From Microcaldota archaeon (GTDB lineage: Archaea > Micrarchaeota > Micrarchaeia > Micrarchaeales > CABMGC01): a stretch of 36,139 nt of DNA. Each line of letters opens with the position of its first letter. Within the stretch, counting starts at the first letter, position 1. The notes beneath the pieces are model-generated. The model did no database searches, had not been told where the DNA came from, and saw only the letters and a list, made by a program, of their open reading frames with translations. Location of the stretch: NCBI GenBank assembly GCA_027314605.1, contig DAHVAM010000005.1, forward strand, positions 261 to 36,399, in the 5' to 3' direction. The translations under genes and the position numbers were made by a program. Below, piece by piece: positions 12,834 through 31,675 of the stretch.

Positions 12834-13757
12834 GTGCGAATAGGCATAACAAGCGTCAGCAACGTTCTTGAGGAGTGGAATTCGAAGGACGTGGCAGACC
12901 TCAGGAAGGCGATATCGTCGTCGGGCAACACGCCCAAGATGATATATGCGGACTCGATGGACGTCAGGTTAGGGAAAGGAAGGGCGGAGACGTACCAGTC
13001 GAGCGACAGGGCGTCAGGCGCCAAGAATGGAAGGGAGTTGATCAGTGTTGACGCTGTGCTTCTCAGGCACCTGGGGACGATAAGGGACTACGAGCAGTTC
13101 ACGTATAGGCTCTTCGCAATCAAGTCGTTCGAGGAGAGGGGAACTTATGTCATGAATCCGGTGATGAACTGGCTGTTTGCAACCGATAAATTCGGGGCAT
13201 TGCTGAAACTTGCAAGGAGCGGGCTCCCCATTCCCGAGACGGTTGTTACGGAACACATGTTTGTCGCCTATTCTGCTGTCAGAAAGTTCGGAAGCGCCGT
13301 CATAAAGCCGCTGAGGAGCGCGATGGGTTTCGGCGTCTTCAAGGTAGACGATCCAGATGTCGCGATGCACGCCTTCAGCACGATGACCAATCTCAACAAG
13401 CCCATGTACGTGCAGGAGTATCTGGAGAAAAAGGGAAACGGGGATTACAGGGTTGTTGTTGTTGGCGGAGAAGTGGTGGGCGCCGAATTCAGGAGGGGGA
13501 CGACGTGGAAGAGCAACATAGCGCAGGGGGCGATTCCGAAACTTGCGAAGGCTGACGAAGAGCTTGAAGACATCTCGTTGAAGACATGCGAGGTGCTTGG
13601 ATTGGACTACGCAGGGATAGACGTTGCAGATACAAAGGACGGATACAGGATACTGGAGACCAATCCCACACTCTCCTGGCAGGGCTTCAAGAAGGCGACA
13701 GGAATCAATCCCGCAAAGCACATAGTCAGGGAGATCATAAGGAAGGCGAAGAATTAG
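12834..13757 (+). CDS. RimK-type ATP-grasp ligase
   Basis: This 307-residue protein belongs to the ATP-grasp ligases that add amino acids, often glutamate, to a carboxylate. Visible marks are the N-terminal RIGITSV strand, FATDKFGALLKLARSGLPIPETV, KPLRSAMGFGV (ATP-binding lysine loop), YVQEYLEKKGNGDYRVVVVGGEVVGAEFRRG and the metal site LETNPTLSWQG. In archaea the family includes MptN (tetrahydromethanopterin glutamate ligase), CofF (F420) and LysX; the substrate cannot be told here. I take GTG 12834 as start because GGAGGT lies just before it and the track's ATG 12792 is inside the TATA region. Its pairing with glyA, a pterin-dependent enzyme, fits an MptN-like role but does not prove it. Confidence 0.8.
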   Translation: MRIGITSVSNVLEEWNSKDVADLRKAISSSGNTPKMIYADSMDVRLGKGRAETYQSSDRASGAKNGRELISVDAVLLRHLGTIRDYEQFTYRLFAIKSFEERGTYVMNPVMNWLFATDKFGALLKLARSGLPIPETVVTEHMFVAYSAVRKFGSAVIKPLRSAMGFGVFKVDDPDVAMHAFSTMTNLNKPMYVQEYLEKKGNGDYRVVVVGGEVVGAEFRRGTTWKSNIAQGAIPKLAKADEELEDISLKTCEVLGLDYAGIDVADTKDGYRILETNPTLSWQGFKKATGINPAKHIVREIIRKAKN

Positions 13758-14704
13758 GATGCGAACCTGCTCCTTCCCACTTTCCTCAGCGTGAAGAGCA
13801 TCGCGATTATCGAGAGCAGGGATGCCGTTGCGAATATCGCGGCGTTGAGAATCTCGAAAGGCTTTGAAATCAGGGAGAATATTGCAAGCGCGATGCTGAT
13901 GAAGGCGAAGAGCGGTGGTATCGCTGGCAGCCCAACCTTGTATCTCCTGAGCAGCAATATTGTGACTACCAGCCCCACGCCGGCGCCGGCGATTATCATT
14001 ATGCTCATGAAGGCGCTGGCATAGATTGCGTAGGCGCCGACAGCAAGCGTCATGGGCAGGATTATGTCCCCATTGCCAAGCATCACGCTCGACACGACGG
14101 GCACGCTGCCTCTCTTCACCATTGCCTTTATTTCCGGATTCTTGATCTTTGATATCTCTACCTCCTTCATTCTTTGTTTTTTGTTGCCAGGCACAAGTTC
14201 CATGTCTGACGACCCTATCATGAAGGCGAGGTTCCTGTTAGAAGCCTCCTTTGCGAGCGGTATCATGAACTTGAGGACGAAGACGGCGAGGTAGTCATAG
14301 ATCGCAAATGCCGCGATCAGCAGGTAAAGTATTAGGAATCCGAAGCTCACCCCTATGCTTATGCCTATGAAGACCCCCGCGCCTATGCTTGTGATCATCG
14401 TTATCAGGTTGCGCATGGCCGGGTTGTTGTACCTGCCCTTTATGGCTAGCAGGAAGATTGCGAGCAGCAGCGAAAGTACGGAGAGCGGTATCAGGCTGAT
14501 TGTTGGGAGAATGTCATTTATCAATATCGAGAAGAGGAAGAACGAGCCGAAGATGACAACGTACCCTTCCAGCAGCCTGAAGAACAGGTCGCCGTGGTAG
14601 TAGCGCAGTATGAGCATCACCATCAGGATTACTATGATGATGTCGACAGCGAGCCAGAAGACGAATGACACAGGGTTGCTGCTCTGGGCGTTTGCGCTTG
14701 CCAT
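13754..14704 (-). CDS. Presenilin-like intramembrane aspartyl protease (A22 family); N-terminus extends upstream
   Basis: This membrane protein matches the archaeal presenilin homologues. Within the track's 316 residues I see about eight hydrophobic helices, the catalytic AIYDYLAVF (YD at 136-137) and the second aspartate motif LGNGDIILP at 210-213, where GNGD replaces the usual GLGD, plus a P-x-L-like P217. It would cleave membrane-embedded peptides. The frame remains open upstream to a TAG at 14831-14833 and encodes one more clear helix (RQILFIVSLFLIAQFAGLLL) preceded by arginines, exactly where the family has its first helix. No ATG, GTG or TTG is in frame there, so the real start is non-canonical (CTG 14818 is the best candidate) or altered. 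It overlaps the ATP-grasp stop by four bases. Confidence 0.85.
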   Translation of the reverse strand: MASANAQSSNPVSFVFWLAVDIIIVILMVMLILRYYHGDLFFRLLEGYVVIFGSFFLFSILINDILPTISLIPLSVLSLLLAIFLLAIKGRYNNPAMRNLITMITSIGAGVFIGISIGVSFGFLILYLLIAAFAIYDYLAVFVLKFMIPLAKEASNRNLAFMIGSSDMELVPGNKKQRMKEVEISKIKNPEIKAMVKRGSVPVVSSVMLGNGDIILPMTLAVGAYAIYASAFMSIMIIAGAGVGLVVTILLLRRYKVGLPAIPPLFAFISIALAIFSLISKPFEILNAAIFATASLLSIIAMLFTLRKVGRSRFAS

Positions 14705-14894
14705 GTATGCGTAAGAAGGAGAGTATGAGGGGATTGCTAGCAGGAGGCCGGCGAACTGAGCTATAAGAAACAGCGAGACTATGAAGAGTATCTGCCTTGA
14801 GCCTATTCGTCTTTCCAGCCTAACACCAATCTACAGGAATAATTTATTTCTAATGCTTGGTTGTATTTATAGGGATATGTGTTTGTTGAGTATT

Positions 14895-30892: not shown

Positions 30893-31675
30893 AGAGATTT
30901 CTTAATCCGTTCTGCTTGTTCTATTGAGAAGGTCTTGTCTATCTCCTTGTAAAGCTCCTGCTTGGCAGTGCTCATGTAGGTCAGCGTTACCGCTGTTGCC
31001 CTGTGGCGCGCAAACTTGGCTGTAAGGAGGATATTGCCGTTTGTCTGCCTAGAGAAGCTGGTTATGGCATAGTGGCGCAGGCTATGCGTTGTAAGCCTAT
31101 CCAGGCTTCTAGGAGTCCTGTCGTAGTTGGTTTCATCGCTACTGTGCCATAGACCTTGTCCAGCCCTGCTCGCTGGACGTAGAACCTGAACCTGTTTCTA
31201 ACGTAGTTCTTGCTTAGGTATTGCTCATTCCTTTCGCTGTAATAGCCCTCTTCTTTGAAGAAGAGATAGCCCACAGATGACTCGATTTGCTTGTTGTTTG
31301 GCTTGATATATTCAAGCGTTTGCCTGAATAGAGGTATAGGTATTATGAGTATGTCTAATGTGTTTGACTTCTCGCTCTTTATAGTAAGTTCTCTTGTTTG
31401 AAAATCTATATCTTTTATGTTAAGTTTTACCGCTTCTCCTACTCTTAGACCAAGCTGCGCTTGATAGGAAAAGAGCAGTCGAAGTTTTGGGTTGTCTATT
31501 ACCCTAAAGAACGTCTGCACCTCCTGTTCGGTAAAGCCTTTGTTGAGGCTACCGTATTTAGGAGTTGATTCTTTGCGAACTTCTTTAGGAATTGTTTATG
31601 GACAATCTTCTTTATCAGTTTAATCTGATGATGAGTAAGCGTTGGTAGAACCAAATAAAGGCTGTTGATAAGCCT
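30886..31675 (-). pseudogene. Tyrosine recombinase (integrase) broken by frameshifts
   Basis: Three reading frames must be joined to rebuild one integrase. From 31675 downward one frame gives LINSLYLVLPTLTHHQIKL and KKIVHKQFLKKFAKNQ; near 31565 the frame changes to KYGSLNKGFTEQEVQTFFRV ... QAQLGLRVGEAVKLNIKDID (first catalytic Arg); near 31146 it changes again to SLDRLTTHSLRHYAITSF and ARHRATAVTLTYMSTAKQEL, which hold the HxxR box, the next His and the nucleophile Tyr, ending at the TGA at 30886. All catalytic positions survive, so decay is recent or the shifts are assembly errors. The gene lies right beside the tRNA-Glu att site. Confidence 0.82.

Follow-up and report, generated by a model that had tools for sequence, protein, structure and literature searches.

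A presenilin-like protease gene on the minus strand of the window, the whole 36,139-nucleotide stretch of DNA analysed here, very probably begins at a CUG codon (14818-14816) that is placed by a GGUG Shine-Dalgarno element and read by the ordinary initiator tRNA, a non-canonical start that would have evolved and then been kept. Comparison with related genomes indicates that archaea seem to keep such 'forbidden' start codons in certain genes, the clearest second case in the same order being RNase HII (rnhB). The features of the protease gene to which the argument refers are the following.

13754..14818, minus strand: presenilin/SPP-type intramembrane aspartyl protease, 354 codons from CTG to stop, assigned by PF06550, structural model and orthologues
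13913..13930, minus strand: LPAIPP, counterpart of the presenilin PAL motif; L, P, A, P and P nearly invariant
14066..14077, minus strand: GNGD motif with the second catalytic aspartate, D251; G, G and D invariant, x variable
14294..14299, minus strand: YD motif with the first catalytic aspartate, D175, invariant in 90 homologues
14702..14704, minus strand: ATG, the first in-frame canonical start, between helices 1 and 2 (ORF check)
14726..14800, minus strand: first transmembrane helix (residues 7-31), lost if the start is ATG 14704
14816..14818, minus strand: CTG, putative start codon, aligned with the TTG or ATG of five congeners and, across the clade, with CTG/ATA/TTG/ATG
14824..14827, minus strand: GGTG Shine-Dalgarno sequence, conserved, with a 5-nt spacer to CTG; anti-Shine-Dalgarno ATCACCTC in the genome's own 16S 3' end
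14831..14833, minus strand: in-frame TAG upstream of the start (ORF check)
14864..14871, minus strand: TATA-like TATAAATA, which would place transcription start near 14842 and leave GGTG within a leader of about 24 nt

The minus-strand frame is free of stops between the TAG at 14831-14833 and the stop at 13754-13756, as a preliminary description of this DNA had reported, and the family proposed there is borne out: by profile, motifs and modelled fold the product is a member of the presenilin/SPP GxGD family, with predicted intramembrane proteolytic activity. It matches PF06550 (SPP/presenilin, Pfam) with E=2.2e-14 and 54.1 bits against a gathering score of 23.9 (54 bits with the extra N-terminal residues, 47 without them), and scores 49.2 bits, under the curated cut-off of 125, with the archaeal PSH equivalog NF041679 of NCBIfam. 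Y174 and D175, together with G248, G250 and D251 of GxGD, are invariant in 90 homologues and lie on neighbouring helices; LPAIPP is conserved, with I replacing L of the PAL motif. Built by AlphaFold2 from a 20-sequence alignment (mean pLDDT 79.7), the structural model has a core of nine helices, the sixth bearing YD and the seventh GxGD, plus one extra C-terminal helix, and Foldseek matches it to presenilin-1, SPPL2a and archaeal PSH structures with target-normalised TM of about 0.6-0.7. The protease thus has its fold, YD, GxGD and a PAL-type motif in common with archaeal PSH (PDB 4HYG, 4Y6K) and human presenilin-1 and SPPL2a, and differs from them in its predicted extra C-terminal helix, GNGD, CTG start and score under the PSH cut-off of NF041679. 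GNGD, which had been singled out as a notable variant, was rejected as an oddity: x of GxGD varies freely among relatives (T, A, N, E, G or S).

Orthologues of the protease occur in 91 of 98 genomes. A scan of genome contigs with the single protease protein gave no matches; an alignment-based scan did find relatives, those that are named being nearly all metagenome assemblies of Candidatus Micrarchaeota. The window's own draft genome, likewise of Candidatus Micrarchaeota, comprises 758 kb. A second, divergent clade of presenilin-like paralogues (L043, L044, L046, L060, L061, L063-L066) has GEGD instead of GNGD/GTGD in several members.

The GGTG five nucleotides upstream of the CTG pairs with the 3' end of the genome's own 16S rRNA, which reads ATAGATCACCTC and contains the anti-Shine-Dalgarno ATCACCTC. 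When orthologue starts of this genome and of a related one (G042) were counted, with overlap filtering against shadow ORFs, GGTG with a spacer of five nucleotides was the commonest Shine-Dalgarno arrangement among 672 starts. Most members of the protease family have GGTG 5-7 nt before the start, not as an extended AGGAGGTG; no leader hairpin was found when one was looked for (z = 0.9 to 1.6). The preliminary description had envisaged a leaderless CUG start, the same codon reached by another route, on the strength of a minus-strand TATA-like AAATAAAT that would place transcription start near 14820. That box is indeed located at 14842-14849, but it is a weaker candidate than TATAAATA, 22 nt further upstream, which predicts a start near 14842 and hence a leader of about 24 nt. 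The GGTG is conserved, and in most relatives with upstream sequence examined another gene ends immediately before the protease (in G042 the mcm replicative helicase, L193:429-2489; similar C-termini stand upstream in other relatives), so that no promoter would lie there and the transcripts would be leadered. Leaderless initiation is accordingly very unlikely. In the window, the position of mcm is taken by a divergent GNAT gene (plus strand, likely ATG 14898).

The first in-frame ATG, GTG or TTG is the ATG at 14702-14704, 38 codons downstream of the CTG, and helix 1 lies upstream of it, just as had been described; the expected truncation also follows, in that any caller restricted to these three codons loses the helix. 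Residues 7-31 are helical in the AlphaFold2 model (block mean pLDDT about 90), and the segment is present in 90/90 aligned protease homologues, with R8 in 88, F17 in 90, G24 in 87 and Q9 in nearly all. In comparison with five congeners, residues 2-38 have pN/pS of 0.13-0.38, against 0.30-0.39 for the body of the protein, indicating purifying selection. Since helix 1 is conserved, modelled and under purifying selection, translation must begin upstream of it. A protein that starts at ATG 14704 and is devoid of helix 1, although this ATG is the sole canonical codon near the N-terminus, is therefore highly improbable: it leaves unexplained both the universal presence and the constrained evolution of the helix, whose removal would break the nine-helix core, and the TTG/ATG that congeners carry at the position of the CTG.

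Four of the congeners have a TTG start, and the fifth ATG, aligned exactly with CTG 14816-14818, and the main clade has CTG, TTG, ATG or ATA there; on these alignments the earlier choice of CTG as the likely start is well placed. The main clade contributes 57 distinct orthologues, in which the codon at this position is CTG in 21, TTG in 18, ATG in nine, ATA in four and others in five. All 39 leucine codons at the position are CTG or TTG, though NTG makes up 35% of the leucine codons in these genes (product of frequencies 2e-18, relatedness ignored), and 20 of the 57 have no NTG between the upstream stop and residue 7. A stop directly precedes the TTG in two congeners (L003, L004), and no start further upstream is therefore available there; a stop likewise stands directly before CTG or ATA in seven relatives (L036, L038, L210, L088, L012, L014, L015). 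In three members (L024, L034, L090) the CTG/TTG that follows the Shine-Dalgarno sequence is two bases out of the coding frame, possibly through an indel, and GCG or GTA occupies the expected place.

Another near-cognate codon, such as the ATT at 14830 directly after the TAG, is as improbable a start as ATG 14704. In its favour, the open frame begins with it, and bacteria are known to initiate at AUU; on the other side, the two congeners just mentioned have a stop immediately before TTG, the spacing from the Shine-Dalgarno sequence suits CTG, and no similarity to homologues persists past a stop upstream of CTG. No greater probability attaches to an error of sequencing or assembly that conceals a TTG like that of four of the five congeners, or to the missed base suggested in the preliminary description as a way of creating a start codon. 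A single T-to-C error would give CTG from TTG, and the window's CTG is documented by one assembly of its species; yet more than 20 other species, from separate assemblies, also have CTG or ATA there, and the wider pattern would stand without the window's genome. Parsimony places 17 codon changes on the tree at the start position, seven of them switches between canonical and non-canonical codons; because the switches recur, the CTG is neither a single inherited oddity nor the error of a single assembly.

The preferred reading, initiation at CTG behind GGTG, also agrees with how the two elements vary together. GGTG accompanies 23 of 25 CTG/ATA starts and 13 of 18 TTG starts of the protease, and none of the nine ATG starts (CTG/ATA versus ATG, Fisher p = 1e-6, uncorrected for relatedness); with relatedness removed the association is not significant, only four to five independent pairs being left, almost all of them in the same direction. 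Initiation at the GTG that GGTG itself contains, which is out of frame and in most members lies 8 nt upstream, with a subsequent frameshift, has a negligible probability, given that the spacer between GGTG and the start varies in sequence and in length (5-7 nt) without a common slippery site and that GGTG at the same distance precedes ATG, TTG and GTG starts genome-wide (27, 19 and seven cases), where no frameshift is needed. For the protease, the position of the start, its conservation, its Shine-Dalgarno sequence and the absence of alternative starts are established by sequence comparison.

A short list of genes with homology extending beyond any NTG, drawn from 336 orthologue pairs between the window's genome and G042, contained rnhB. 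Among 58 distinct rnhB genes of one order (families f1 and f2), the start position is ATA in 19, ATC in 15, ATT in 14, GTT in one, ATG in seven and others in two, that is, ATH in 48 of 58. Every isoleucine codon is ATH, and therefore this tally alone proves no start; the 31 of 58 genes in which NTG is absent all the way from the in-frame upstream stop to the catalytic Asp do so. GGTG stands 3-8 nt upstream in 43 of the 48 ATH genes. Outside f1 and f2, ATG stands within two codons of the homologous position in 14 of 16 genomes, and ATA occurs in one (f11, L352). The rnhB of the window's genome (L106:11320; G000:C16:11320-12021, plus strand) and those of relatives (L250-L279, L310-L350) have ATC/ATA/ATT after GGTG-N5; in G028 (L263) a GTT at the start after GGTG-N5 recalls the GTC/GTT of Streptomyces sigR.

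The same short list supplied two control genes, trm1 and pepQ; each was followed in 30 relatives and starts at NTG in nearly all of them. Several individual genes nevertheless present near-cognate codons. The trm1 of the window's genome (G000:C19:2857-3945, minus strand, L371) has ATA directly after an in-frame TGA, where nearly all relatives have ATG/GTG/TTG; a gene for a cysteine-motif membrane protein (G000:C13:11385-12146, plus strand, L431) has ATA directly after TGA with GGGGTG upstream, its congeners' N-termini being too divergent for comparison. An AbrB-like gene, named by eye (L280, L281, L283, L290, L292, L297, L300, L301, G042), varies at the start position, where several relatives have ATA/ATC/ACG and others ATG. 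On contig C11 of G042 (plus strand), two genes apparently lack an NTG start: pepQ near 494.8 kb, with ATA behind GGTG-N5, and near 270.1 kb a Nop5-like gene, with CTG or ATT. In the window itself, a tyrosine-recombinase-like ORF (31062-31595, minus strand) has no NTG in its first 25 codons past the upstream stop and is possibly truncated or has an odd start.

A scan of the window's genome and G042 revealed no genome-wide enrichment of CTG/ATA/ATC after GGTG with a five-nucleotide spacer, and near-cognate use is therefore specific to genes: as far as these comparisons reach, some genes conserve it and others show it sporadically, with no general loosening. Genome-wide relaxed start recognition was rejected on this ground and on the NTG starts of pepQ and trm1, and loss of aIF1 was rejected as a cause, aIF1 being present in 93 of 98 genomes. 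Self-control of aIF1 of the infC type was not found, its gene starting at ATG in the window's genome, G022 and G042. A tRNA scan of G042 found one CAT tRNA.

These observations suggest a mechanism in which the GGUG, five nucleotides upstream, would place a weak CUG or AUH codon in the P site, where the ordinary initiator tRNA would read CUG and presumably insert methionine, yielding the full presenilin-like protease with helix 1. Within one Micrarchaeota clade the start position switches among UUG, CUG, AUA and AUG, GGUG going with the weak codons, and the order also retains AUA, AUC or AUU at the start of rnhB, behind the same GGUG-N5 element. Low, possibly regulated synthesis is a likely consequence, and start-codon fidelity factors such as aIF1 may modulate initiation. 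It is quite possible, though we lean slightly against it, that the order keeps rnhB (AUA/AUC/AUU) and the protease (CUG/AUA) under translational attenuation by near-cognate starts and GGUG, with fidelity (aIF1 and others) as the regulator, as the first archaeal counterpart of infC, sigR and ccpN.

Gene finders limited to ATG/GTG/TTG cut helix 1 from the protease and also remove the catalytic DEAGRG motif of RNase HII in those genes whose next NTG falls beyond the motif. If confirmed, these starts would extend conserved near-cognate initiation to archaea and would provide natural, phylogenetically replicated sites at which to study how archaeal initiation factors judge start codons. Whether weak start codons act as a brake on particular archaeal genes thereby becomes a directly testable question.

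A literature search that left most subscription papers outside its range found no report of conserved near-cognate starts in archaea, Micrarchaeota included. A review of archaeal initiation names only AUG, GUG and UUG as starts (PMC7531240), and a review of archaeal recoding describes non-canonical events as demonstrated only at elongation and termination (PMC8211752). Archaeal aIF1 destabilizes non-AUG complexes in vitro (PMC6237735), and switches from AUG to CUG or AUU are otherwise seen at the 1e-5 level (PMC5622118). The reading proposed here has Shine-Dalgarno-led initiation and proof-reading by aIF1 in common with archaeal initiation as known, and differs from it in CUG and AUH as conserved start codons.

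The closest parallels are bacterial. Staphylococcus aureus infC (AUA), cvfC1 (AUU) and ccpN (AUA) have conserved non-canonical starts with extended Shine-Dalgarno sequences, whose output in poor medium is about 10% of that from AUG (PMC13009471), and Streptomyces has GTC/GTT starts in sigR and ATT/ATC in infC, the GTC of sigR being repressed by IF3 (PMC5472188). As in genes of this type, near-cognate starts occur here in several species without an alternative NTG (20/57 protease and 31/58 rnhB genes), behind a GGTG that stands 5-7 nt upstream in most members, without the extended AGGAGGTG. Like the archaeal genes, those of S. aureus keep AUA/AUU across species, combine a strong Shine-Dalgarno sequence with a fitting spacer and are missed by annotation; they differ in being bacterial, IF3-related and experimentally demonstrated, whereas the archaeal genes have only GGUG as Shine-Dalgarno core, are known from sequence comparison and have CUG as the main protease variant. 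The Streptomyces genes likewise share a conserved near-cognate start whose codons interchange among species, a strong ribosome-binding site and misannotation, but they are actinobacterial and their repression by IF3 has been demonstrated, whereas archaea have aIF1 instead.
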